64,000 nucleotides of DNA from Capitulum mitella (taxonomy: Eukaryota > Arthropoda > Thecostraca > Pollicipedomorpha > Pollicipedidae), in contig CP099839.1 in assembly GCA_030062745.1 (NCBI GenBank), forward strand, positions 37,047,293 to 37,111,292. The letters are read 5' to 3'. Numbering within the stretch: position 1 is the first letter of the stretch; the number at the start of each line of letters is the position of its first letter. A program made the position numbers and the translations under genes. Under the pieces are notes generated by a model that was not told the DNA's origin, did not search any database, and saw nothing but the letters and a program-made list of their open reading frames with translations. Positions 16,961 to 61,800 of the stretch are shown in pieces.

Positions 16961-17690
16961 CCAGATCTGACTCCGTCAGACTTTTGACGGAGTCCGATCT
17001 GGAGAGAAGAGTGGGTGAGGGATGGTTTCATCATGTTTATCGAGCAGGAAGTCCATCATGACACGTGCCTTGTGGGCTGCAGCATTGTCCTGATGACGCA
17101 GGAAGTTGCTGTTGACTAGCCTGGGCCGCTTCTGCTGGATCGTAGGCAGCAGTGTCTTCTGGATCAGATCCCTGCAGTACTGCCCAGTGATGGTGGAGAC
17201 CCTCGGCACTGGATGGGCCGGGATGACGCCCTTCTGATCCCAGAAAAAGGCGTAGACGACCTGCTCTGCACATTCAAACTGTAGGAACTTCTTTAATGGC
17301 GGCGAATACGCATGTTTCTGCTGCTCTGACTGCATTTTCATCTCTGAGTTGTACAGAGGGATCTACGATTCGTCCATTGTGATGATGCGTCCCAAAAAGT
17401 TGTCTGGGTCAGTTTGATGACATTCCAGAAGTGGCCAGCATGCATCAGCTCGCGCCTCCTTCTTCGCATCGTCCAGCTGGTGCAGCATCCATCTTGCATT
17501 GACCTTCGTCATCGCAAGATCATCGGTGATAATGGGACGAACAGCCCCATGGGAAAGACCCAGATGCACAGCCATCTCTTCAACAGTGATTCTTCAGTCT
17601 TCTCTGAGGAGGCTTTCCACTCAGGCATGTTCTCTGCAACCACTGATGACTGAGGCCGCCTGGCACGTGGCCGAACTTGGCATTCACTCA
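16961..17690 (-). mobile_element. broken mariner-family transposase
   Basis: The minus strand encodes most of a mariner-like transposase in pieces. From the N-terminal side: a frame-disrupted stretch near 17690-17580, then ITVEEMAVHLGLSHGAV, then ITMDES with the first catalytic Asp, an in-frame TAG at 17365-17363 where the family has Trp, VPRVSTITGQYC-type core, HQDNAAAHKA with the second Asp, and SPDRTPS just before the expected third Asp. The third Asp is missing because the copy ends at an inverted duplication (16963-17004). It cannot encode an active enzyme. Terminal repeats were not found. Confidence 0.9.
16963..17004. repeat. hairpin at the mariner breakpoint
   Basis: ccagatctgactccgtca and its near-perfect complement (one mismatch) flank a short loop. 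The right arm is the transposase coding sequence and the left arm is an inverted copy of it beyond the point where the element stops. Confidence 0.88.
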
Positions 17691-23078: not shown

Positions 23079-26000
23079 ATGGAAGGGGATCAGTCAGACA
23101 GCTCTGTGGAAGAGCAACCCCCATCTGATGGTGCAGGATGCAAGCACTACAAGAGGAAAGCCAAACTTGTGGTATGTATCATGAGATTTTTGTGCTGTTC
23201 TGCCTGCCATGCTGGTGAGGGTATAAAATCAGGATTTCAGTAACATGGATAAATACATCCTTCATGTAATCTCACTAGATTGCCAAAATTTTGCTTAATA
23301 TGTTTCATCCCACTTCATTGTGTTTGAAGAGCATGCATGTTATCCCAGTTTATTATCTTTTTGAGGGAAATTTGTTTAATTTCATTCTAGCCTAATTAAC
23401 AAGATCTTTGAACCACTTGTTAAGGTGGAAGATGCTCCCTGGTTAGATTCCCTACATTGCCATAAATTGTTCATCATTGCCACAATAAATATTAGGCTGG
23501 TTATGCTGCAGACATTGTTGCTGTGCAGGCAATTCTGCATTTGTACATACTCATTACTTTCGCGAGCATCAGTGAAGTGTATAATTTGTTCTTTGTTCAT
23601 TCCACAATAAAACGAACTATAGAGATTAACAACAATCTCACCAGCTGGTACTGATAGCCTCTCAGTATCAGGCCAAACCAGCTGTTAGTAATCACTCATT
23701 ATTCCTGTTTTCTGTCTTGTTTTGTCCCACCATTGTTTAGTATGATGTTCATGGGCATTTCTGGCCGCAGGCACCCTGTTGTGGTAAGGTGTACACCTGC
23801 CGATTTTGCCATAATGAAGTGGAAGACCACGAGCTGGACCGTAAGCAAGTGACCGAAGTGGAGTGTTCAGCATGTGGGTTCCGGCAAGGAATACACCAGA
23901 AGTGCATCAACTGTGATATTGTTCTAGCCGAGGTGAGCAGTGAGTCATCTCAGAGGTGCTTTTTGTAGGTGGTGAGGAATGGAGTTCTTGTTATTATGAT
24001 TATTGTGCCAGATTCAGGGGTAGATCCAAGGGGGCGATCGTCCCCCCCCGGCCTGAGAGGGGCTCCGAAGGGGCCCCTCTCTTGAACTGCACGTGGTTTC
24101 TATGAAAACCTGACAGGTTTTTAATGCAGTCAGGGGGCCCTCTGGAAGGGTTAGATGGCCCCTGAGACGGATATAAGGTCCCTGAGACCGCAACAGCGCC
24201 CCGACACAGCAGAGCGTCCCTTAGGCAGTCAGAAGAATCATAGGGCACCTGAGACAACACAGATGATGGCTGAGTATCGAGGACAGCATAGGGGTCCTAA
24301 ATTGGCTTCACTGGCCTGTATGTAAAGCTGAAGGTCTTTGATGCAGTCAGAGGTCCTCTGGGGACCCTGAGATGGCAGATGGTCCCCAAGATGGACAGAA
24401 GAGCCTTTCAAGCTCTCCAAAGGCCCCTGAGACCGCAATAGGGGCTCCAACATGGCAAAGGCCAGAGATGCTGAGATGCTCAGATGAGATCCATGAGATC
24501 ACTTAAAGTGCCAGAGGGACCCCCTGAGACGGCAAGACCTTGGAGGGTGCCTAGGACGGCGTAACGAACCCCTGGCCAGCCAGTGGGGCCCCTGAATGGG
24601 GATTTGTTGGTGACCTCAACTTCAAGAGGGACCCCAAATGGGAAAAACTGGTCTTTTCGAAAATCTGAGGGGTTCTTGATGCAGTCAAGGGCCCCTAGGT
24701 CAGGTGGGTCCTGAGACGGCAAGACGGGCCCTTGCGCGACAGAGGGTCCCGGAGGCTGCCGAAAAAGTCAGGGGACCCCTGCGACGGCAAAGACAATAAG
24801 AGAGCCACTAGAACGGCATTGGGTCCTGGACAGCCAGAGAGCCTCTGAGTGTGTTAGGCGGGCTCATGGCACGGAAAGGGTCCCCTGAGACTGCCAGTGA
24901 GGTCCCTGAAGTGCCAACAGAAGCTCCTGATAAGGCTAGAAGGCCTTGAGACTCTCAGGTGTGCCTCTTGTAACAGAGGAAGACCCCTGATACGGGCATG
25001 GAGACTACCGGAGACGTTCAGAGAGCCCATGACACTGCACAGGCACCCTGAAATCGCTAAAAGTTTTTTTTTTGTAACTGCCAGAGGGTCCCCAAGACGG
25101 TAAAAATGTTCCCCAGAGACGACGAAACAGGCACCTAAGATAACTGGGCTTCACTGAGACTGCTAGAGGGGGGCCTAGAGTCTGTTAACTAGCAGTCTGC
25201 AGGTAGCAGTCTCTAGCAACAGGGGCCCTTGAGACGACCATAGTGGTCCCTGAAACTACTAAACCCTGAGACCTTCAGACAACTCCTAAAATGGCCAAAG
25301 GACGTAGAGGATTGCCAGAGGCGCCTCTGCCACGGCAATATGAGACTTATAGGGGGCCCTTGTCACTGCCTGAGGGGCTCCTTAGAGGGCGAAAAATGTC
25401 CCAGAGACGACAGAAGGGACCTCGAGTTGGCCAAAGCCTCCCTAAAACTGCCAGATGGGCTTCTGAAACTGTCCGAAGTGTCCCTGGAACTGCCAGAAGA
25501 GCGCATAAGACGTCCCGAGGGACATGTAAAACTGTTCAAGGGACCTGAGACTACTAGAGGGCTTGGACATGGCAGACGGCCCGAGACCACCAAAAGGTGA
25601 TCCTGTAACTGGCGATGTGGACCTAACCTAAACCAACTTAAGCGAGCAAAAAGGTCTCCAGAAACTGCGAGATGACAGAGGGACTCCTGGACCGTTCCTG
25701 ACCAATATCCTAAACTTTGTCAGGTACAGACACGGGATTTCAGGTAGAAAGAGGGACGCAGGCGCCTAAAATCCCGCCGTTTTGCTGATATTTCGGCCAC
25801 TTTGTACAGTAAGAAAACGCAAAATTTTCTCAAATAGGTAGAGGCGTTTGAATTTTTCCGCTTACTTTCTATGGTAAAAACGCAAAGTGATGTGAAATAT
25901 TGGCCCTGGCCTCGCGCGGATGTACGCTGTTTTCATATTTGGAGAGCAAAAACAGGGGGAAGGGCTCCCGCTGGGAAGGAGGCCCCGCGCTGACGATTCC

Positions 26001-28420
26001 CCTCCCCCCGCTAAATCTTGGATCCGCCCTTGGCCAGTTTTAATTATTAGCCTCCTCTTGCCCTTCTGTGTCCATGGTTGCTTATTGCAGGGGATGTTCG
26101 CATTAACCCTACTGTGGTTTGCTCGTACTTTGTGTCTTCAGTGGCATTATGTGCATGAGGAAACTGGTTATTACTACTCTTAAAATGTGATGAGCCCAGT
26201 GTGCCGGATACTCTTTGCAGTTTCATTTTAACTTTAACGAATAGTGCAATCAGCCATTACCTCTTTTACACACAATATTTGAATGCCTATTTGCAGGATG
26301 TTTGCAGCAGGGAACCATTTCAGGCTTCTTCTTGACCGTGGCCACGGGCATGTTGCAGTATTTTTGCGGCGTTTGCCGGCTCTACGATGACGATATGAAG
26401 CAGCAGTACCACTGTGAGGGCTGCGGCATCTGCCGTGTGGGCGGCAGGGACAGCTTCTACCACTGCAGTACCTGCGACATGTGCCTGCCGAAAAACCTGC
26501 AGGACAACCATAAGGTGGTGACGCTGTGCTGAAGGGTATCCTGTCGACCACAATGGAGAAGTCTCAAGTATTTGAGTATATACAGATTATTGTTTGACCT
26601 TTTTCGTGCATGGCCAGTTTGATGTGTGTAACATGCATGTAACATTGCTTCATAATGTGACATTGACGGTGCGCGACCATGAACATGTCAGGTTTGCATG
26701 GTAATGAACAACCACGTTTGTACAGCATCGGCGCCACACTTTTTGTCTCGTGCCGTTTGTCACGGGAGTCCTTCATTGCCGCGGCGTCGGGTGGGCGGTA
26801 TTAGTCACCGTCTGAGCTGCGCTGTAACCGACGCCTGACGTGCCGCAGTGTGTGGAGCGCGTGAGCCGGACCAACTGCGCCGTCTGCATGGAGGACATCC
26901 ACACGTCGCGCATTTCGTCCCACATCCCGCCGTGCGGACACATGATCCACAAGCCGTGCTTCAAGATGTTGGTGGACCGCGGCTACTACGCCTGCCCCAC
27001 CTGCAACGTCGCCATGTTCAAGATGGACTTGGTAGGTTGGCCGACGGTAGGCCGCGGACGGGCGGCTCGGCTGCCGGTGTCACGCGTTTTTCGCAAATTT
27101 GTACCTTTTTCGGCTCCTGGTAAAGGACTGTCATGTTCATCATGCCTGCGTATGAATGTGTTTCGTGTCAGATTGGATTGAGTGATCGTTGGCTGCTGTT
27201 GCTGGGTCGAGTCAGTCGACCTCTCCCCCGCCGGCTTCAGGTCTGGTCCACACTGGACCGGAGCTGAAGCCGGAGCTGGCTGAGACGCAGGCGATTAGCC
27301 CTCCTGATTGTTCGGCCGCAGATCTGGTCCACACTGGACCGAAGGTGGCTTAGACGCAGGCGGCTAGCCGTCTTTGTTGTTCGGCTGCAGATGTTGTCCA
27401 CACTGGAACGGAGGTGGCTGAGACGCAGGCGATTAGCCCTCCTTGTTCGGCCGCAGGTGTGGTCCAAGCTGGACCAGGAGGTCGCCGAAACGCAGATGCC
27501 GGCCCGCTACAGGAACTGCTACGCCAAGATTCTCTGCAACGACTGCCAGTCCAAGACGGTGACCACGTTCCACGTGATTGGCCTCAAGTGCGGCGCTTGT
27601 GGCTCTTACAACACGGTGCGCGGCGACGGTCCGCTCTTCAAGAGGAACGGTGAGTGGTCCCCTGAAGTCCGGGCCTCGTTCCGCGGCTTGCTAAGCCCCC
27701 GGACCCGGGGACGGGGAAGGAAGCTGTGGTTGGTCCAGGCGATGGACGGGGATGGTCCGCGTGGAGGTTGGGTGGCGGTGTCTGGTGAGTAGGCGCTACA
27801 TCGGATGGTTGGTTCGTGTGTGTGTGTGTGTGATCCGTGTGGACCGCGGCTAGGTACGTCACGGCCGATGTTTCTGGTTGATGAACCTCGTTATTTTGCC
27901 GCAACCTCGGACGGTGCTGGGTGTTTGGCAACTATCGTGTAGGGTTTGTCGTCGCACTTGTGGGCCTGACCAGGGTGTTTTGATTCACAGGGATTGTTGA
28001 GTGTTCGCGTCCCGTGTATTAAAAGTGGGATGATGATGCGGAGACTCGATTATTATTCCCCTGGACGTATTCCTAATGGCGAACTAGAAATGGGCGTCGG
28101 TTCTTAAACGCGATTGTCATGAAACAGATTGTTTTGGTCGCACTGGTGTTATTCATTGCCTAGTTTAAGAAGTCGTAAATCCACCCGTTTTCCTGAATAG
28201 AAATGGAAATCGCGTACGACTGCGGATCAGAAGAAAACCAAGCTTCTAGTGCCTTGCTATCACTATTGCTGATCCATCTTCCGCAGCCTTACTGCCTCTG
28301 TGCTAACACTGGCGTTCGCCTGCAGCCAAGGAAGAGCTGGTTCCATTCAGCGAACTGGACGAGGACGAGCCGGAGGTTCGCCCGCCGCCGCCGCCAGCCG
28401 CCGCCGATGACGACCAATGA
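23079..28420 (+). CDS. RCHY1: RCHY1 (Pirh2), CHY and RING-H2 zinc-finger ubiquitin ligase
   Basis: Six plus-strand exons, 23079-23171, 23771-23932, 26359-26514, 26849-27031, 27457-27649 and 28326-28420, join at GT-AG introns to give 293 residues; human RCHY1 has 261. Residues 21-85 hold the CHY finger ([22 protein letters not shown], CxxC pairs). Residues 86-137 are the CTCHY finger ([35 protein letters not shown]). Residues 147-189 are a RING-H2 (C147, C150, C166, H168, H171, C174, C186, C189). Exon 5 encodes the C-terminal zinc ribbon ([14 protein letters not shown]). The tail is acidic with a proline run and ends DDDQ. Known family members ubiquitinate p53 and other substrates. The tail is longer than in vertebrates. 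Intron 2 carries a satellite. Intron 4 carries repeated decoy acceptors. The ATG is the first in frame after a likely 5'UTR acceptor. Confidence 0.97.
24010..25720. repeat. degenerate satellite in RCHY1 intron 2
   Basis: Modules of cccctgagac, ggcaagagggtcc and gccagagggtcc recur every few dozen bases across 1.7 kb. The flanks, caggggtagatccaag near 24013 and its approximate complement cttggatccgccctt near 26019-26033, are inverted. The whole may therefore be one element of about 2 kb carrying the array. Frames inside are repeat artefacts. Confidence 0.75.
27241..27456 (+). repeat. tandem copies of the RCHY1 exon 5 acceptor and exon start
   Basis: The start of exon 5, cag followed by gtgtggtccaagctggacca (acceptor at 27456), is preceded by three diverged copies starting at 27241, 27322 and 27391. 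Each retains a cag boundary and a tggtccacactgga-like start. Spacings are 81, 69 and 66 bases. Copies at 27322 and 27391 are open and in frame with exon 5. Use of their acceptors would add 45 or 22 residues. The copy at 27241 meets a stop after eight codons. Confidence 0.92.
27813..27831. repeat. short (GT)n microsatellite in RCHY1 intron 5
   Basis: About nine GT repeats (gtgtgtgtgtgtgtgtg). Simple sequence. Confidence 0.9.
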
Positions 28421-31090
28421 CGCGCTGCGGGGGGCTCGGGCGGCGCGTTCGGCCTCGCCCGGGCCCCGTCGGCGGCCGCCGCTGCGACGGCCCGGCCCGG
28501 CCGGGTCTCACCCGACTGACTGCTGCACAGTTTATACCGGCCGGAGTGTGGTGCTAGAGTAGCGATAATTCAGAGAGAGAGAGACGGAGAAGCGAACCGA
28601 CCGCTGCTGTTCTGCTCCGCAGAGCGGAGAAAGTCGTGGACTAGTGACGTGCGGCTGGAGATTTTCGCTTGACGTAGCGGTTTGCTCTGTCGTCCCAGCA
28701 AGTGTTTACCGCTTGTTGAGTATTTTAGTTTGTAGTCCATGAAAGATATTGATATTGGCTAGATAGACTTATTATTGAGCATGAAATCGTGTGCGTTTTC
28801 GCACCGTTTTCTCTCCGCCCCTGTCTTGTCAGGTTGGGCAAGTTGTTTGTTTACATCAAACGCGTTGTGTTTAAGGTACGCGGGTTCAGCAGCCTTCGGT
28901 TCAGTACCACCAGTATTTCGGAAACGTTCGGCTGGCGTGGGCAAATTCAGAGAAGGCGCAATCGACAGTTGCTGGTCCCCTGGTTCGGGGAGATGCAATG
29001 CTGCGAGTCCCTTTCCCCGCCCCCTGCGCATAGTTGGGTTGGCACAGGCCTTTAAGTTTTAACAGCGAGTCTCAGAAGACAGTAATTTCGGATTATCACT
29101 TAACGTTTTCATTTCCATGTGCTGTTTACACCTGAAGACTTGGCCACGGTGCGCGCAGAGTTTGCAACTCAGCAGATTTCGCAAGTCAGTTTCCAGATTC
29201 TCATAGGGCGCCCAATTATAGACATTTGCGACTTTTCAGGCCCTTACGGACGAACGAATAGTGCAAAAGAGCGACCGATTTGGCATCTGTTCATGTTCGT
29301 CATCGCAGTGCGTCATGTGCCGAGCTGGCGTCTAGGACATACCTCTGTCACACCAGTCAGACGCTGCATGCGGGTGCTGGAGGGATGGGGCGAGCGAGGC
29401 AGAGTGGCGGGCTGGTGCTGACGACGGCCTGTAGATCTGCTCTTCCGAGTGTCTCTTGCCTTGCGGATATTGGCAGCGTACCTTTGCCCGTCCGGGCATT
29501 TTAGTCTTACGGGGTCCTAATAGTCTTCAAGGAAATCGGAAGTGTGGTTTCCGTTGTCCAGAGTAAAATTCAGTTTTACTAAAGGGTAGCTCGTCCCTGA
29601 GTATCCGATTATGAGAATGGCGCTGGTGGACCACCGACGCGTCTCCTCCGAGCACGTATCGTAATTGAAGCAAATGGGTATGTGTGTAGCCGTTCGTGCA
29701 TTTGTACTTACAGTTAGAAAATGGTCCGGAAGCAGCTACTGGTCATACTGCATTATTAGTGTACGCACCATTGATAAAATTATTTAGTTTTATAGCACGT
29801 TCACCCTGAATTGCTTATGACGAACTCAAGAATACAACAAACAGCCCGTACAGCTCATTCCTGTTTGATCTTCTGGGCAGACTGGTCTTCGGCCGTAGCG
29901 TACGGCAAAGCTCGATGACGAACAGCGACTGGATGGTTCTGATTGCTGTTCTCCCATGGACTGTAGCGTTCGGAAACCCAAAAATCGCAACAAGGGTATA
30001 TACATCACATGACAGTGACGGGACAACTAGACTGATGCACGTAAAGCGCAAATATAGGCATGTGCGAATGTACGGATGACATGTACCGACGCACGAACGT
30101 ATTTTGGGCACGTGTACATTTGGCACATGCACGTAAGGCAAACGCACGTCTCCGGAAACCCAAGCAAACGCATTGTGCATATGAGTAATGTAGGTATGCG
30201 CAAAAATACGTGCGCTTAGAAGCATGATGACGCACAGTACGCATACAACGTAGGCGAAATAAGTATGTTTACCTAATCACTGGCGCGTAAATATTGACGG
30301 CCCATGCCGAAAGCTGTATGTTCCTCGAAAGCTGAAACAAAGCACGTAACTTTCGTACTAAAGAAGATGTGATTTCGCTTGGCTAACGAACAGGTAATGA
30401 CGTTAAACTTTCACTTCCGTCGCTAACCAGACTGCTAAATCGTACATTTACTCTGAACGTGAGCTAGGGAAGTTTATAGAAATGGTTTACGGAGGTCGTA
30501 AGATGCTGGTAAAACCATGATTTCCTTCATGATGACGAATAACGTGCAGATCATGGATTACATTAATGGGTCGTGTCATATAACTTTAAATTTGTCGTGC
30601 TCTGCGATTTTTTTGCAATTGCTTGTTCAGTGCAACTACTGTTCCTTTGAACTAGTACGAGATTCAGTTCTGATTCCGATTCGGTGCTGTTTTCAATTGA
30701 ATTGAGTCCGATTGCGATTCACGACAAAAATGCTAACTAAATCGATCCAGTGTCGATTCGATTCAGAATCGCGCATACGCCTGATCATCAACCAGTAATT
30801 CGGAATCATTTCGACATTCCAGGTACAAGCATGTGTAGTTCGAGACAGTTTTGCATACAGAGTTCCCAATTTATTGCAGATCGTTACTGCAAGTTCCATG
30901 TGCTCTTCTTTTTAGCCTTTCAGCCTTTTAGCCATCCTTTGGATCAGCCTTTAGCTTCACCCCATACGCTGATCATGTGACTGGGCGGCACTTGGGTTGG
31001 TCTTGTCCCATTGTTGTGCTCAGGGGCGTATCTGGAAACTGATCAAGGGGAAGCCATCATGCTTCAGGGGAGCGCCACCAGCTTGAGGGG
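28421..31090. other. gene-free stretch downstream of RCHY1
   Basis: 28421-28720 is the RCHY1 3' flank and is GC-rich at first. No clear AATAAA was seen near the stop. The rest is mixed sequence with no exon. From 30040 to 30230, diverged units like gcgcaaat, gtacatttggc and cgcacg recur on either strand. These also appear at 37960-38070 and 39840-40100. Confidence 0.45.
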
Positions 31091-32890: not shown

Positions 32891-33062
32891 TACCCTAACC
32901 TAACATAATAACCTAACCTAACCTAACCCAACCTAACCTAACCTAACCTAACCTAACCTAACCTAGCCTAGCCTAGCCTAGCCTAACCCAACCTAACCTA
33001 ACCCAACCTAACCTAACCTAACCTTATCTAACCTAGTCCAGCGCAACCCAACCTAGCAACCT
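32891..33062. repeat. interstitial telomere-like (CCTAA)n tract
   Basis: About 170 bases of CCTAA pentamers (TTAGG on the minus strand) with variants cctag and cccaa that grow commoner toward the right. TTAGG is the common arthropod telomere repeat. The tract is internal, flanked by simple repeats on the left and unique sequence on the right, and is already decaying, so it is not a live telomere. Confidence 0.93.
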
Positions 33063-40100: not shown

Positions 40101-41081
40101 TACGACTGTCATGGAATTAAGGAATGGCCCCGCAGATGCCGTTTGTGCTCTGATCTCTGTGTCTGTTGAAAACGTAATGAATGGTTTTCGAGACTTGCTT
40201 GGTGTTAGTCTGACGGCATTGTCAATGAAGAATTGTCTCCGCTACTTATGCTGGACCCTTTTGTCATACAGCCGAGGAAACAGTGGTCAGCTGATTCTCA
40301 TGGGTATAGTTTGAAGGCTGTATGGCGAAGGCTGTAGGGCGAAGTGCAGCATTCTTGTCCTGGCGGCTTTGACACCAATTCGCTAAAGACGGCTATAAAA
40401 GGTGATATGTGCTATCTTCATTATGGGCCGCGAGCAACGCTATCTTCAGAGACCTGTTGACTACCTAGAATTGTCAGCTTTGTGTTGCAGTTCCGTTCTA
40501 AGAAGCGAGGCCCTGGAAGTTGCCCTCCCGTACTCGTCGAACAAAAGCTTTAACTACGACGGGGCGCTTTTCCAAAAACAGCACGTTCATCTCCGGATTC
40601 CGCACTATGCACATCGCAGCGGAGAATAATGTTGACGGTGAATATACAGATGTTGCGGAGAGCACATTTCCAAAATCTCGTTTCCAACCCCAGAAATCCC
40701 CAGAGTCGAACAGGAAATGCCAAAAATCAGGCATTGCCGGCACGAAAAGTTTCAGTTGCCGTCCTGCTTCCCGTATGATTCACCATTCCTCCCTGGCCAC
40801 GCCGCGGGACATGCGGACTCCGCCCGCGCGGCCGGTGTCGGTCAGCACGATCAGCTGTTGGTCGGCGCCGCGCACAGCTGCGCCGGCGGCCGGGCGCCGT
40901 ATCGGGCGCGGCCGGGAGTCGGCGCGCAGCCGCAGTGGCCGACGGCGGCGCGGCGCCCGCTCTAGTCCGCCCACAGGCGCCGCTCGTTATTCCTCCGGAG
41001 GCCGGGCGGCGGCACTTGCCGGGCCGACGCGCAGCTGCGCCGACAGGTGGCCGCCGCCAGTCGCGCCGCCGCGCCGCCGCC
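40101..41081 (+). other. 5' flank of the orphan ORF, CpG-rich after 40790
   Basis: 40101-40790 is ordinary sequence without an exon. 40790-41081 is extremely CpG-rich and probably holds the promoter and 5' leader of the 41082 reading frame. The frame stays open back to about 40935 but with no ATG before 41082. Confidence 0.5.
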
Positions 41082-43763
41082 ATGTACAACTTCGGCCGGG
41101 ACGAGGCCCGGCTGTGGCGCTCCACCACGCCGCGGCTGCCGCGCCGCGCCGGCGCCGAGCTGACGTTACGCCGGCGCGGCGCCGAGCCGGCGCCGACCGG
41201 GCTCAGCGCCGGGCACGGCCCGCGCCGGAGCCCGCCGCCCGCCGCGCCGGTTCGGCCCGCCGCCGTAATCCGCGGCAGGACGGAGGCGGCCAAGGTCCGC
41301 CGGCACGAGTCGGCCGCTGAGGTCAGCGCAGGACGGGGCGCCGCGGGCGCCGAGGTCGGCAAGGGCCGGTGGTCCTGGTCCGGCTCTGGAGGCTCAGCCA
41401 TGGACGGCGTCTACCTGCCGCGTGAGAGGGCCGTGGACGTGCCGCCCAACTTCGTGGCCAAGCCGCGCCGTGAGCCGCCCGGTGGTCCGCCGCCGCAGCC
41501 CAAGAAACCCAAGAAGCACAGGCTGCCGCGACTCAAGATCCGCTTCACCCGTAAGAAGCGGTCGGCGCAGGTGGACTGGCCGGAAGAGGCGCTGGAGGCG
41601 GCTCCGAGCGCCGACCAGCCGGGCCCGGCCGAGCCCGTTCCGCACCTGCTGTCGGCAGACAGTCTGGCGCACGGCGCGCGCGCTCCGCGCTTGTTCCCCG
41701 CGTTCCGGCCGGAGGAGCCGGCCCGGCGCTGGTCGGAGCGGGCCGATGACGTCACCTCCAGCGGCCTGGGCAGCTCCTGGGAGACGGGGCTCAGCGTGTG
41801 CTCGGAGGCTGGCGGTGTGGCGCGCCACCCCTCGTTCCGGCAGTCGGTGCGCCGCTTCCTGCGCCCGTTTCGCGCCCACGAGCCGCCGAGCGGCGAGGGC
41901 CCGCGCAGGAGCGCCTCCTGTCCGTGCCTGCTCACCTGCGGGGCTGAGGACCAGCTGAGCGGTGAAGCGCCACCCTCCAGTCCGTGCAGGACGACCGAGA
42001 CCGAGCGCGCCGCCAGCAGCAGTGAGTCCAAGCCCGTCGCCGGCAGCAGTGAGCCCGAGTCCGCCACCAACAGCGGCAGCGTTGCCGGGGCCGTCGCTGG
42101 CAGCAGTGATGTCGCCGAACGCCCCGACAGCGGCGTTGAACCCGAGCCCGCTGCCGGAAGCAGTGAGCCTCGACCAGTCTCCGTCAGTATCAGCAATGAG
42201 GTTGAACCCGCCAGCGGCGGCAGCAGCCTGGCTGAGCCTGCCGCTGGTAGCAGCGTTCAGCGCATCTTCGGATCGCAGCTGGCCCATCACAGACCAGTGG
42301 TGGCCGGTATTCAGCACTACTGGCGCGTGCGGCACGAGCAGGAACGGCTGGGCCTGTTGCACGTGCACGAGGCCAGCCTCAGCTTTGAGCAGCTGCCGCG
42401 CAATATTCAGCCGTTCGTGCTCTACCACCGGCCCCTGGTCACCGAGATAAAGAACTACTGGAAGGACAAGCGGAAAGCGCTTCAGAGAAGCGCCAGGTAC
42501 AGCGCGCCGGCGATAAGTCACCGTGTCTTTGACGCGGCGGAAACCTGCCGTATTCACGGCGCTGCTGTCGAAGACAGCATCCCCGAGGAGGCCAGGTACG
42601 ATCCTGTCCTCGAGGAGGCTGTTAGTGAAGTCGCAGAGGAAGCTGCGAGTGCCGTGACCGCAGCGGCCGTCAGCGAGGACGTCCCTGAGGTGGTCGGGGT
42701 CATACGGCGGTCGCCGAGCCCGCCGCCTGCCGAACGCCAGACGCGGAGCACTGAGGCGGAGACTCCGAGTCCGAGTCCCAGTTCGAGTCCGAGTCCGAGT
42801 CCGGAATCCGATTATTGCGAGCCGCCCGGCCTGAACACAGCCGAGGCCACACGTCGCCCCGAGGAGGAGCTCGCCGCCCAGCCAACGCTGGTCGATCTGG
42901 ACGGCGTGGGGCCGCTGGTCGATTTTGACTATCTGCTGCCCCACGTGACCCGCTCGAGACCAGCTCCTCCGAGACGCTGCCGCTCCTTCACGGCCGGCCG
43001 CGGCAGAGCCCCTGCGGGCCCGGCGGCGGCTCGGAGTCACTCGGACCTCTCCCGGGAGACAGCAGTTCAGAGTGATCCTGATCCAGCCACGAGCGGCGAT
43101 GCGGTCACCGAAAAGCCTGCTGCCCTGGACAACGAGTCAGGCGTCTCTGACGAGTGCGGTGACCAGCCGGAAAGGCCGGACCAAGGTCGCCCAGTCTTCA
43201 GCGAGGAGTCAACCTTCGCCAGTTCGAAGTCCTTCTGGCAGTCGCTGCAGGACCTGAGGCCCATCCAGGAGAACGAACGGCTGCTGAAGCGCGTCAGCTT
43301 CAGGGAAAAGGAAATCAAGGCCAAGAAGGACCCGCTGTCCATATTCTTCCGCCACCTGCTACACAAAAGCGAGTCGATAAACATCGCAGCCACCCATGGC
43401 AAGACGCAACAGGACAAGCCGCCTCACCACACGGTGCTGCCAGTCGTGCCCAAAAGAAGAAAGCACGTCATGAGCTTGCCGAACGTCGTGGCCAAAGTCA
43501 AACCTGAACACAATCCACGGCTGGCGGTCACTCCCCCCAGCCAGCCGGATCCCCTCGGGGTCTCGATGGAGGCGACGGCGGACAAGGCGGGTGCCTCGGT
43601 CAACCGGCTGAAGCAGCTGCTGTCGCCGCGGCCCGTCCAGCCGGTGGCGCCGTTCCACCTGCAGCGGCAGACGACGCCGACCGGCAGCAGTCGGCGCTTC
43701 ATTCGACCCGGCGTGGTGCGGCAGCTGCAGGCGCAGTTTGAGAATCTGGCGCGTCAACACTGA
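41082..43763 (+). CDS. orphan 893-residue Ser/Pro/Glu-rich protein
   Basis: A single open frame of 894 codons, unknown family. The first ATG is 41082 in a GCCGCC context. A second, at 41400 (residue 107, context cagccATGg), is equally plausible as the start. Visible features: a strongly basic patch at residues 137-160 (PKKPKKHRLPRLKIRFTRKK), low-complexity AGSSEP-type repeats at about 305-390, two copies of HRPxVxxIxxYW at 403-414 and 449-460 spaced 46 residues, a run of SPSPSPSPS near 570, several RRSxS-like phosphorylation-type sites, and a C-terminal helix QLQAQFENLARQH. No membrane segment or signal peptide. Mostly disordered and probably nuclear or cytoskeletal by composition, which is inference. 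The minus strand is also open for 548 codons but lacks the repeated motif structure. Introns cannot be excluded. Confidence 0.62.
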   Translation: MYNFGRDEARLWRSTTPRLPRRAGAELTLRRRGAEPAPTGLSAGHGPRRSPPPAAPVRPAAVIRGRTEAAKVRRHESAAEVSAGRGAAGAEVGKGRWSWSGSGGSAMDGVYLPRERAVDVPPNFVAKPRREPPGGPPPQPKKPKKHRLPRLKIRFTRKKRSAQVDWPEEALEAAPSADQPGPAEPVPHLLSADSLAHGARAPRLFPAFRPEEPARRWSERADDVTSSGLGSSWETGLSVCSEAGGVARHPSFRQSVRRFLRPFRAHEPPSGEGPRRSASCPCLLTCGAEDQLSGEAPPSSPCRTTETERAASSSESKPVAGSSEPESATNSGSVAGAVAGSSDVAERPDSGVEPEPAAGSSEPRPVSVSISNEVEPASGGSSLAEPAAGSSVQRIFGSQLAHHRPVVAGIQHYWRVRHEQERLGLLHVHEASLSFEQLPRNIQPFVLYHRPLVTEIKNYWKDKRKALQRSARYSAPAISHRVFDAAETCRIHGAAVEDSIPEEARYDPVLEEAVSEVAEEAASAVTAAAVSEDVPEVVGVIRRSPSPPPAERQTRSTEAETPSPSPSSSPSPSPESDYCEPPGLNTAEATRRPEEELAAQPTLVDLDGVGPLVDFDYLLPHVTRSRPAPPRRCRSFTAGRGRAPAGPAAARSHSDLSRETAVQSDPDPATSGDAVTEKPAALDNESGVSDECGDQPERPDQGRPVFSEESTFASSKSFWQSLQDLRPIQENERLLKRVSFREKEIKAKKDPLSIFFRHLLHKSESINIAATHGKTQQDKPPHHTVLPVVPKRRKHVMSLPNVVAKVKPEHNPRLAVTPPSQPDPLGVSMEATADKAGASVNRLKQLLSPRPVQPVAPFHLQRQTTPTGSSRRFIRPGVVRQLQAQFENLARQH

Positions 43764-43945
43764 CCGTGGTGCGACAGCTGCAGGCGCAGTTTGAGAATCT
43801 GACGCGCCAACACTGTGGTGCGACAGCTGCACGCGCAGTTTGAGAATATGGCGCGCCAGTACTGACCGTGGTGCTACAGCAATGGACGCCGTATCAGAAT
43901 CTGGCGCGTCAGCACGGACCGTGGTGCGTTAGAACTGACCGTGGC
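43764..43945 (+). repeat. tandem copies of the orphan ORF's last codons
   Basis: The segment gtggtgcggcagctgcaggc that opens the last 17 codons (from 43713) recurs at 43766, 43815 and 43868, with a decayed copy after 43900. Periods are 53, 49 and 53 bases. Each keeps the cagtttgagaat and gcgcgtcaacactga parts. The copies lie after the stop and are out of frame with it. Confidence 0.92.
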
Positions 43946-55844: not shown

Positions 55845-58800
55845 ATGGGCGACACCGAGTCGCAGTCGTCGATGGAATACTCGGACGACGACGACGACGA
55901 ACTGCAGGACTATTACCAGGGCGACCTGGACGACGTCGAGGAGGACACCTCCCGGCAAAACCCAGAGTACTTCCCCGTCGAGTGTCTCAGTGTCGAGGAA
56001 GTGGAGCGGCTGTTCAATGAATGGGTAGAGCAGCTGAGTACCAGTCTGCAGGTCAGTAACGTTCATTGGCGTCGTCTGTTTTAATGCTTCAGCATGTACG
56101 TGTAGTGTGTTGGATTTAAAATTCATTATTGAAGCAAGTGTATGTTTGTCATGAATCATTGTTTTGCGACTCTGAGGTGAATACTATGCCAGAAGTTTAT
56201 TCAATGCTATTAGTTGCGTTGGCATGAGTAAGGACGTATTGCCATCTGTCATGTTGTCAGGTGACGCCGTCGTTGGCCAAGCAACTGCTGCACTCCAACA
56301 GCTGGAACGCGGCCGAAATTGAGGCCCGGTACCGCGCCGACCGTGCCCAGCTGCTGGCGGAGGCGCAGATCAAGCCGCGCACGGCGCCGCTGGCCGCCGC
56401 CGGCCCGGCCGCCGGCCAGCCGGGGCCGAGCAGCGGCGTCCAGCCGGCGTCCGCCGCCGCGCCGGCCGTCCAGCCGCCGCCAGAGTGTCCCGTCTGCGCG
56501 TGCTCCCAGCCGCCCGGCGAGTTCCGGGCGCTGTCGTGCCGACACCACTTCTGCCAGGGCTGCTGGCGGCTCCACCTCGAAACACAGATCATGCAGGGGA
56601 TTTCTCTGGGTAGGTGTGGCTCGTAGCACCCCGTCAAAACTAATGCTCCGTCTGATGTGAACAATTGGTGTTGGATAAGTTTGCAGGTTTCATTTGGTGG
56701 TTTACAAGAAACAGTTATTTTTTAATCAGCCATGCAGTCTGCATTTGGTAAACTGTAACAGGAAGGAAAAGTGAAGAATGATTTTCAGTATACCTTTACT
56801 TACTGTTTGCCTTTATTTATCCCAGAACAGTAGGTGGACAATAGGTCCAATAAGACAATCAGAGACAATAGGACAATAGAAGACAGTAGGACAATAGGTG
56901 GACAACAGGTCCAAGCATTTAAGAACCATTATATCTTGCTATTGGTTTCTTAGTCTCATACAACAAGCACGTAATACCCGACAGGCGCATTTGTATGGGT
57001 GCGGGGTGTTTGGCAGGGAGCAGCAGTGCTGGGTGTATGATGTCGGCGCTCAGAGCGTATGGTGGTCACGGCCGTCACAAACGCCGCAGGTATCGAGTGC
57101 ATGGCTCGCCACTGTCGCATCTCGGTGCCGGAGGACTTTGCCGTGTCGCTGCTGAGTCGGCCCGCACTGCGCTCACGGTACCAGCAGTACGCCTTCGCCG
57201 ACTATATCCGGTCCCAGCCCCAGCTCAGGTGCGGCCAGTGGGTCCGGTGGACACGGATGGGGGAGGGGGTCCTGTTCGGACCTTTGGACACGCTTACTGG
57301 AAGGCTGCTGGGACAAACGGCCAGCCGTCCGTTGTAGACTGTCGTCCCAGCTGAGCGATGATGATACGTTAACGTGATAAACGATTGGTGGCGGTGGTTT
57401 TATACTGATAATGTGGACATAAAATCGGTATTAAATGGCTTGTCTGAAAACATTTGGGTGGATTGTAGCCAAGGATAGCGTATTTCTGGAATGCTGTTGT
57501 ATGTTCGGTAACCGTTGGTTGACGTTTGCTGTCGACAGGCTTTGGCGTGTCTGCTTGGTCACGGTCGGTTGATGTTTGCTGTCAACAGGTTTTGCCCTGT
57601 ATACTCGGTGACGGTTGATCGGTGTTTGCCGTCGACAGGTTTTGCCCTGTATACTCGGTGACGGTTGATCGGTGTTTGCCGTCGACAGGTTTTGCCCTGG
57701 CCCGAACTGTCCGATTATAATCAGGGCGTGGGAGCCGAAAGCGAAGCGAGTAGTTTGCAGCAAATGCAAAACGTCATTTTGGTAAGAGCGATAACATCAG
57801 CAGTGTATCGTGAACTCGTTTTCTTGGCGTTGGTAATGTTTACGTAAAGAAGAGAGCCTGCTTTGAAATCCTGCCAGGAATGCTGCTGCTGGAAACTCAG
57901 ATATTTATTCCTTGTGTTTGTTTGTTTTAAATCGTGTTGCGTGTTAGATTGCAAACTAGCAGGCTAATCTCGTATGTCGTGGAATACTGCGTTGGACGGC
58001 GTTTTCCTCATTTGGAGGCAGTGTTGTATGGCAGACTGGTTGACTGGTTGCCTCGTTCTCCCGGTTGCAGTTTCCGCTGCGGTATTGATTACCACGCCCC
58101 GGCCGACTGTGAGACGGTGAAAAAGTGGCTCACGAAGTGCGCCGACGACAGCGAAACGGCCAACTATATATCGGCGAATACCAAAGATGTGAGATTCGGC
58201 TGCCGGCACGCGCAGTGTTAAAACACAACTGCCGTCCTATGCGAAGACTGTGCCTGCCGGTGGTGTTTGCGCTCGTGAACGTTGCGTTCAGCGTTTGTGA
58301 TGTTTTACTTTGGTACGTTCGTGTGCTGATCGTCCTTTTGAGCCGGAGGAATACTCAGCTGCTAATATCCAGCTGGGCATAGATTCGTCACATTAAGCAG
58401 GCTAGGCACTGTGCAGATTGTGACCATCTGGTGTTTCTTTTTTACAGTGCCCAAAGTGCCATATCTGTATAGAGAAGAATGGTGGATGCAATCACATGCA
58501 ATGTTTCAGCTGCAAGTTTGAGTTCTGCTGGATGTGTCTTGGTGAGTAATTATCTTTTGTAGTGTGTAGGGCTCCTAACGAAATATCTGCCATTCATTAA
58601 TAATGTCATGTGTATGTTACCTTCATTATTAAGGAGTATAAATGTAACTAGTCTTTCCCGTGTGTTTTGTCCTCCGTGTCGGTGAACGCCATCTATAGGT
58701 AATCGTCGTTGTGTGACATTGTATTGAGCTATACACTTCACGAGTGGGATCAGAAAGGTCTGGACCCGACAACGCGAGAAAGGCAATCATATTAACATGC

Positions 58801-61800
58801 TGTCAACTTACGTCCGTCATAAATTTGCGCGCATAGTTGGAAACGTCCAACCCTCATAGATTTTGCTTTACAGGCATTAGTATAGTTCAGGTTTTGTAAA
58901 CGTGCCGAAATGGAGAAAAATGAAGTACGTGCAGTCATAGAATATCTTTGCTTAACAATGAAAACGTGGTGTGTCAAATTAAACGTACATCGGAGATGCT
59001 GGAATGGTCAGAGTGGCGTTCACGATCCGTTAGCGAAGAAAATAATGAAAGAGCCAGCGACCTGGCGTCGATTGGTGTAGTATGAAATGCCAACTTTCTT
59101 GGTTGCATGTGCGGCGTGGATACCTCTCGTTCGTCATCGGAGCGCGAAAGCGTGAACTTTTTCAGCACTTTCTTCGTCTGCGGATGTTGAAGGTGGCCTT
59201 GACCTTTCAGTGTCCTCAGTGGACGTTGTTTTAAACTCGTCAGATCACCTTTTCATTGTTGAGTGTCATTGAGCTGAATTATTTAATGTGTCACGCATCA
59301 TCGGACAGAATTGTTCCATGCGACATGTTTTTTGATAAGGTGTTATATTACTACGTGCTCTTAATTCTCTATTTTCACACGTTACCCGAACTTACCAAAG
59401 TCGAACTATGTCAGTACGTTAAAAAGAAAACATCATGGTTCCGAACTGCTGTGCAAGCATGCCCAAACTGATGTTTCCAAACTTGTGTGCAAACTTATAA
59501 TGGACCCAAGTTAATTTAGTGTCAGTATGGTGGCTTTTCTCGCGTGGCCTCCGGGTCAGGCGGGGAACTTTTTGATCGGCCCTCATATCAAGGTTTCCAC
59601 ATCCACTTGCTCGGCTCCCGAGTGTATCGGTGCGGATCTTGTAGTGGCTTTAAATCGTTTCCGTTCGCCCGTCTTGCCAGGCAACTGGAAGAACCACGGT
59701 TCGGAGTACTACGAGTGTTCGCGGTACAAAGAGAACCCCAACATTGCCAGCGACTCTGCGCACGCCAAGGCGCGGGAGGCGCTCAAGAAGTACCTGCACT
59801 ACTACGAGCGGGTACGGCCGTACTGCGCAGGGGCTTCGGCCGGTCGGGCGCCGCCGGCCGGGCCGGGCCGGGTTGTATGGCCAGTTCACTTCCGGCCCGG
59901 ACACACTGTGTCTGTCGCTCTGGCTCTGTGTATGACGCTTCTCTGCTGTTGATAGCATTGGGAACGAATAGAGCTGCTTGTTACTAACCATTTCGTGAAA
60001 CATTACGAGCCTGTTATGTCAAAAATAACAGGCTCGTCTGCTGCATGCTGTTCGCTTGACTGGAGAAGAGCCGACTGTGGTGCTCGGGTGTTTTGTTTGA
60101 ACATCACTTGCTTAGCTGTCACATATTTTTTCCAGTGGGAGAATCACTCCAAATCTCTGGCACTGGAGGCGCACACCCGGCAGAAGATTGTAGATCGGAT
60201 CAACCAGAAAGTCAATGATGCAAGTGGTACCTGGATAGACTGGCAGTACCTGCTTGGTACGTACTCCATCTCGTGCTCAGCTGAAATCGCGACCACTCTG
60301 AAAGGCGTGGGTAAAGGCCGTCTTTTGTCTTTTTTTCATCCGACCTGATCAGAAATCTTGGGCGTACATCGTGGGGAATTTTGGCACCAAGGATATGTTC
60401 TGCCATATTATTACTAATCCTTTTTTAAACAGTCGAATGACGTCCTGTTCTTTTGTTCTGTGGTGATGCAGGTATCAGACACCCGACTTTGGAGGTTGCA
60501 TGTGTATTGTGTACTGAAGCAGATTGTTATAGCGGCTGCGGCGTGTTCCGCCCCGGGCCGGGAGGGGAGCCACCGCAGCAGGGTGTCCAGTCGGACCGGC
60601 CGGCGTATCCGCCCCGGGCCGGGAGGGGAGCCACCGCAGCAGGGTGTCCAGTCGGACCGGACCTGGCGCTTGTTCCGCCCCAGGCCGGGAGGGGAGCCGC
60701 CGCAGCAGGGTGTCCAGTCGGACCGGCCGACGTATCCAGCCCGGCCGGGAGGGGAGCCACCGCAGCAGGGTGTCCAGTGGGACCGGCCGGCGTATCCAGC
60801 CCGCTGGGAGGGGAGCCACCGCAGCAGGGTGTCCAGTCGGACCGGACCTGACGCGTGTTCCGCCCGGGGCCGGGAGGGGAGCCACCGCTGCAGGGTGTCC
60901 AGTCGGACCGGACCTGGCGCGTGTTCCGGCCCGGGCCGGGAGGGGAGCCACCGCTGCAGGGTGTCCAGTCGGACCGGACCTGGCGCGTGTTCCGGCCCGG
61001 GCCGGGAGGGGAGCCACCGCTGCAGGGTGTCCAGTCGGACCGGACCTGGCGCGTGTTCCGGCCCGGCCGGGAGGGGAGCCACCGCTGCAGGGTGTCCAGT
61101 CGGACCGGCCGACGTATCCGGCCCGGCCGGGAGGGGAGCCACCGCAGCAGGGTGTCCAGTGGGACCGGCCGGCGTATCCAGCCCGCTGGGAGGGGAGCCA
61201 CCGCAGCAGGGTGTCCAGTCGGACCGGACCTGACGCGTGTTCCGCCCGGGGCCGGGAGGGGAGCCACCGCTGCAGGGTGTCCAGTCGGACCGGACCTGGC
61301 GCGTGTTCCGGCCCGGGCCGGGAGGGGAGCCACCGCTGCAGGGTGTCCAGTCGGACCGGACCTTGCGCGTGTTCCGGCCCGGGCCGGGAGGGGAGCCACC
61401 GCTGCAGGGTGTCCAGTCGGACCGGCCGACGTATCCGGCCCGGCCCGATGCGCGGCCGATCCCGATGGTACCGCCCCGACCCTGACTCGGTGGCGCCGGC
61501 CTGGTTTTCAGACGCGGCGGCCCTGCTGGCCAAGTGCCGGTACACGCTGCAGTACACGTACCCGTACGCCTACTATCTGGAGTCCGGCTCCCGCAAGGCT
61601 CTGGTGAGTCCTGCCTACCGGTTGTCCGGCGGATGACGACCAGGGGTGGGGGATCGTTGGGGCGTTTGTGTCCATCTTTGTCGCGAGTTCGTCGGTATTT
61701 AGCCGTGGGGGCTGATGTATTTGTGGTATCCAGAACTGGCGCGTCCAAGAGTGGCTGAATGTTGGCGACGTCAGGGTTTAAGGGGTGTCAACTGGTCGCC

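Follow-up and report, generated by a model that had tools for sequence, protein, structure and literature searches.

The RCHY1 (Pirh2) locus raises the question of whether several copies of one exon edge, lying in the intron just ahead of that exon, are used as alternative 3' splice sites or are by-products of a tandem repeat that runs across the intron-exon boundary. It was addressed by sequence comparison within the window, which is the whole stretch of DNA analysed (64,000 nucleotides).

The RCHY1 gene and the layout of the array

The window holds a complete six-exon RCHY1 gene on the + strand, and its joined exons give a protein of 293 aa. The exon borders were predicted from GT/AG signals, reading frame and homology, not from transcripts, and are as follows.

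23079-28421, + strand: RCHY1 (Pirh2) gene, by GT/AG borders, frame and homology
23079-23171, + strand: exon 1
23771-23932, + strand: exon 2
26359-26514, + strand: exon 3
26849-27031, + strand: exon 4
27032-27456, + strand: intron 4, 425 nt, phase 0, with the donor TTG/gtaggt
27457-27649, + strand: exon 5 (authentic), its first 40 nt being the fourth copy of the edge
28326-28421, + strand: exon 6, the range ending one base beyond the stop codon

In the Pfam analysis, zf-CHY (residues 21-86), zf-RING_2 (146-190) and zinc_ribbon_6 (195-251) were all above the cut-off, which is the order of CHY zinc finger, RING and C-terminal zinc ribbon that defines RCHY1/Pirh2. RCHY1 chains are the six best among 11 solved-structure matches, and we take these six to be human or mouse. 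Exons 1-4 total 594 nt, which places intron 4 in phase 0 behind codon 198. With the acceptor that leads into 27457, zinc_ribbon_6 (protein 195-251 on profile 2-58) and the structure 2k2d (195-256 on 10-71) both cross the exon 4/5 junction after residue 198 with their length unchanged. Since both span the junction in this way, the protein made with this acceptor is, as judged from the alignments, the ancestral form. The spliced protein gave 16 pattern matches against prokaryote genome contigs and the 64 residues of exon 5 gave four against viral contigs; none was confirmed in either search, as expected for an animal gene. Rfam returned no matches at gathering score over the window.

The Pfam scan of open frames covered 20 of the 101 frames of at least 110 codons. 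A transposase piece is present on the - strand at 16979-17362 (PF01359 Transposase_1, 25 bits with a cut-off of 24), which is presumably of the mariner type, and one open-frame stretch at 56228-56623 shows weak, sub-threshold CEBP_ZZ and RING matches. The open frame of 994 codons at 40779-43760 had no Pfam match.

Intron 4 ends in a minisatellite, with units of 66-81 nt, that spans the exon 5 acceptor. Its parts are the following.

27241-27291, + strand: copy 1 of the exon 5 edge, 51 nt including a 12-nt extra, with its acceptor CAG at 27238-27240 and a TGA at 27265-27267
27292-27321, + strand: linker L2 and acceptor 2, intronic, the CAG ending at 27321
27322-27360, + strand: copy 2 of the edge, open and in phase, 45 extra residues
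27361-27390, + strand: linker L3 and acceptor 3, intronic, the CAG ending at 27390
27391-27429, + strand: copy 3 of the edge, open and in phase, 22 extra residues
27430-27456, + strand: linker L4, the upstream tract of the authentic acceptor and a member of the array

A preliminary description of this DNA had placed three copies of the exon edge (its first ~40 nt) upstream of the exon, and these starts were found again at 27241, 27322 and 27391, with CAG before each of them as before the real edge at 27457. The edges follow one another at 81, 69 and 66 nt, and the copies lie 216, 135 and 66 nt from the real exon, every one of these distances being a multiple of three; the naive chance of three such spacings is 1/27. 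TRF reports a single array at 27270-27495 (period 69, 3.3 copies, 79% matches, score 267). Scored against the 40-nt exon edge, the copies reach 26, 30 and 34, and the best of 6357 background 60-nt windows reaches 25, so that copy 1 alone is just one point over background and its support comes from its place in the array. With 20 intron bases added, the edge reaches a score of 54 in the upstream intron, and the highest of 100 shuffles is 27. It is the only one clearly repeated among the 10 RCHY1 splice-site edges tested, the other nine scoring 13-21, within their own shuffles (up to about 700 nt of adjoining intron each).

Regarding the other introns, the exon 3 acceptor edge is marginally like its upstream intron at 26239-26318 (score 21, with two of 100 shuffles as good), and intron 2 appears by eye to be filled, at 24000-26030, by degenerate cccctgagacggcaa-like motif repeats.

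Origin of the copies and comparison with mirages

Linkers L2 and L4 differ by a single 3-nt gap, all 27 aligned bases being equal, and L3 agrees with L4 at 22/27 and with L2 at 23/30. Since the three linkers are homologous, the array includes the tract ahead of the authentic acceptor. The preliminary description mentions neither this nor the one-base shift of the copies relative to the exon frame, nor the palindromic extra of copy 1. The homology of the tract before copy 1 is not clear (98, 27 and 69 of 1000 shuffles were as good against L2, L3 and L4, respectively), and because of this the comparison does not clearly fix the original unit boundary. Four edges in register and three homologous linkers support the tandem duplication of the exon edge that had been proposed before.

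Copies 2 and 3 are one base short relative to exon 5, and copy 1 is a net 11 bases longer; it may be read as carrying the shared one-base loss plus the 12-nt extra, the reading that gives the best match to copies 2 and 3. This puts the later part of each copy one base out of register with the reading frame of exon 5. When reading starts one base further along, copy 1 gives ELAETQ and copy 3 gives EVAETQ, as does the exon, and copy 2 has a stop there. These remnants, and the conservation of the stretch in known RCHY1, indicate that the copies derive from the coding exon and not the reverse.

The copies are alike at 34-35 of 39 positions when the extra of copy 1 is taken as one gap, and at up to 37/39 with free gaps. 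Against exon 5 they match at 32/40, 29/39 and 30/39, which is less than their likeness to one another. Over whole units, the agreement is 61-62/66 for units 1 and 3 (the range reflects where gaps are placed), 56/66 for units 2 and 3, and 58-60/69 for units 1 and 2. This mosaic fits an exchange of sequence among the units with the exon left out, with the caveat that selection on the exon alone could yield the same divergence of the border unit. The differences also bear on an assembly artefact, which has to be considered since tandem repeats are prone to misassembly and the array is seen in a single sequence. However, the units differ by ~6-16% and carry distinct indels, which is not expected from the stutter of one sequence, and an artefact is extremely improbable.

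Other minisatellites in the window support the minisatellite reading of the RCHY1 array. A 53-nt unit is repeated 4.2 times at 43712-43928, with a two-unit period of 102 nt, overlapping the end of the 994-codon frame; a 50-nt unit is repeated 4.0 times at 57498-57699, where the consensus contains CAGGT and no gene was recognised; and a large minisatellite at 60541-61425 has a 66-nt unit repeated 13.9 times and a second row at period 382. The window also contains a CCTAA (TTAGG-type) array of 28.8 copies at 32894-33035, which resembles the arthropod telomere motif; it is by this array that the animal is judged to be probably an arthropod.

Tandem repeats across intron-exon boundaries, termed mirages, have been described in lancelet globin, Adh3, troponin C and PGBD5 genes (PMC3087553 and PMC3902484, both in excerpt). 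The RCHY1 array shares with the Branchiostoma cases, among them BflGb6 and BflGb9, a minisatellite-like duplication of the boundary, as far as the excerpts of these two papers describe it. In both, splice signals are kept in many copies and the border units escape homogenisation (same excerpts). In RCHY1 this corresponds to tandem units with both intronic and exonic boundary sequence, a splice dinucleotide retained before all four edges, and units that are alike, with a border unit that is more diverged (29-32 of 39-40). The array differs in being in another gene and, probably, in an arthropod, in its units of 66-81 nt that are all multiples of three, and in one copy with an inverted-repeat extra. 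A further likeness is found with novel intron positions in Drosophila at AG/GY proto-splice sites, where coding sequence bearing a splice signal is duplicated in tandem (PMC2891723, excerpt); in RCHY1, in contrast to intron gain or sliding, the 3' end of an existing intron is multiplied and no new intron is shown.

Going by its sequence, the RCHY1 array would be a known kind of structure in a new gene and, probably, in a clade new for mirages. Among the literature matches listed (titles and abstract starts, which is weak coverage and mostly leaves out subscription papers), there was neither such an array in RCHY1 nor a mirage outside lancelets. Should the animal prove to be an arthropod, minisatellites of this boundary-spanning kind would occur outside lancelets as well.

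Regarding the course of events, the sequence shows a tandem duplication of a stretch made up of ~27-30 nt at the end of intron 4 and ~40 nt at the start of exon 5. The divergence pattern suggests that amplification then started from an intronic copy with one base missing, and that the units swapped sequence while the unit of the real exon was kept apart by selection.

The extra sequence of copy 1

Copy 1 carries two features that are particular to it.

27264-27275, + strand: 12-nt extra of copy 1, its placement ambiguous by several bases
27231-27273, + strand: hairpin over acceptor 1, with 20-nt arms (27231-27250 and 27254-27273), 19 pairs, one mismatch and a 3-nt loop

The extra has no counterpart in copy 2, copy 3 or the exon. 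Positions 27264-27273 are the exact reverse complement of 27231-27240, the intron end at acceptor 1; this is the longest inverted match (10 nt), and 13 of 5000 shuffles reach the same length. A plain 12-nt duplication as the source of the extra finds a best match of only 9/12. The hairpin arms are 90% complementary, and 27221-27280 has a predicted fold of -39.4 kcal/mol (z -5.58), with none of 200 shuffles as stable. A short inverted repeat was already in the edge, and the extra completes the stem.

Template-switch mutations in quasi-palindromes that make hairpins are a known class (PMC8794818 and PMC3820800, in excerpt). The extra resembles them, as they are presented in those excerpts, in completing a stem around a pre-existing short inverted repeat, and it is an exact inverted copy, in stem register and absent from the sister copies. 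It differs in that it is seen once and that the sister copies stand in for the ancestor. A short-range template switch is a well-supported reading and the best explanation of the extra in one step: later than the amplification, it would have supplied copy 1 with acceptor 1 in inverted orientation, giving both the hairpin and the in-phase stop. Since the TGA at 27265-27267 falls within the extra, stop and hairpin are probably one event. Copy 1 shows a plausible one-step origin for a hairpin over a splice site. The template-switch hairpin and the inclusion of the authentic acceptor among the repeats are the most interesting details of the locus.

Acceptor choice between the copies and exon 5

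Translation bears out the earlier statement that the copies at 27322 and 27391 read through in phase into the exon, adding 45 and 22 residues, and the 45 residues (14 Arg, 0 Lys, 10 Leu and two acidic) agree with the basic, Arg/Leu-rich insert that had been described. If either site were used at a real level, RCHY1 would carry this segment between the RING and the zinc ribbon. Phase 0 and the open frame of copies 2 and 3 favour such use. Nevertheless, 0.213 of random window positions and 0.213 of shuffles have an open frame of 135 nt (for a single 69-nt unit, 0.444 of shuffles), so the open phase is unremarkable and expected by chance in about one case in five. Copies 2 and 3 differ in 10 codons, four synonymous and six not, with three, two and five differences at codon positions 1, 2 and 3; these counts have no power and give no sign of selection. 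The open frame, the 1/27 spacing and the four of 10 synonymous codons are hints at most. Moreover, the extra segment is one base off the exon's frame and is thus not a repeat of a conserved protein stretch.

Acceptor strength was scored with a generic matrix not fitted to this organism, which gave 8.4, 6.4 and 9.4 for acceptors 1, 2 and 3 and 9.3 for the authentic one at 27457. On this matrix no other AG among the 27 in 27100-27500 scores as high as these four, which also exceed the remaining four acceptors of the gene (4.3, 0.4, 0.5 and 3.2). In the array each acceptor has its closest upstream AG at 20-25 nt, versus 30-39 nt at the other four acceptors. A yUnAy branch-point motif 10-60 nt upstream is found for acceptor 2 only among the four, the authentic one having none, and the gene's other four acceptors have at least one each; this pattern, if anything, is against 27457.

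Local folding was predicted at four sizes. At each of them acceptor 1 has its AG paired and acceptor 2 has it unpaired (0.96-1.00). The A of acceptor 3 is open (0.93-1.00) and its G varies over 0.17-1.00; at 27457 the A is open (0.91-0.98) and the G varies over 0.54-0.99. Unpaired values are as low as 0.00-0.04 at the authentic acceptor of exon 4 and 0.01-0.02 for the A of that of exon 3, and values of 0.02 or less occur at 26 of 400 random AGs. Burial in the hairpin was considered as proof that acceptor 1 is silenced and was rejected, as those two authentic sites and these random AGs are similarly buried. Nothing in the matrix, the motifs or the folds ranks the acceptors reliably.

These data favour acceptors 2 and 3 insofar as acceptor 3 scores like the authentic site and acceptor 2, lower in score, has the sole branch-point-like motif of the four and an accessible AG. 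Human Pirh2 also has splice forms altered around the RING end and the C-terminal domain (PMC9101203, in excerpt). These forms (B, C and b) were likened to the present case; however, those in the excerpt involve loss of residues or an early stop, none being seen there as the insertion of a duplicated edge, and their borders (residues 171-179 and 180) lie inside the RING, whereas the array junction lies after it. In lancelet arrays of like anatomy, splicing is reported not to be disturbed (excerpts of PMC3087553 and PMC3902484); for the globins, RT-PCR and the Adh3 data suggest regular splicing in spite of many copies with potential cryptic sites (PMC3087553, excerpt). Use of 27322 or 27391 at a real level is rather unlikely, and the isoform idea is not favoured.

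Acceptor 1 could act differently, as a poison acceptor. Its use would add VWSTLDRS and a stop after the RING, giving either a target for decay or a form without the zinc ribbon, with the hairpin as the switch. Its tract is the richest in the array (82% pyrimidine), its score is 8.4, the stop lies 382 nt ahead of the exon 5 donor, and the predicted hairpin is very stable with the AG in its stem; human forms without the C-terminal domain have also been described (PMC9101203, excerpt). However, the argument from burial is weak, since about the same burial is predicted for the authentic acceptor of exon 4 and for the A at exon 3, and a template switch explains hairpin and stop without selection. 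A poison acceptor is very improbable. A more elaborate combination, in which a mirage outside lancelets would serve as a graded RCHY1 splice switch adding 0, 22 or 45 basic residues, with the outermost acceptor shut by the template-switch hairpin and given a stop, is unlikely.

Taken as a whole, the analysis points to a mirage-type minisatellite that is probably largely neutral, with 27457 as the main acceptor. The array would most likely be spliced out as intron, going by the lancelet precedent, and the decoys would be by-products, maybe giving low-level noise. The neutral reading draws on the analogy with the lancelet arrays, and it has against it that the generic matrix gives no reason for the decoys to be passed over (9.4 for acceptor 3 versus 9.3 for the authentic site). 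The array is probably a curiosity rather than a new mechanism, and if the copies are ignored by splicing it is a small addition to a known class. The array offers a natural test of how the spliceosome chooses among near-identical acceptors.

It should also be noted that AG/GTGGCT is present at 27345 and 27414, in copies 2 and 3, and is close to the exon 3 donor AAG/gtggtg. A micro-exon of 23 nt is conceivable, but it would shift the frame.
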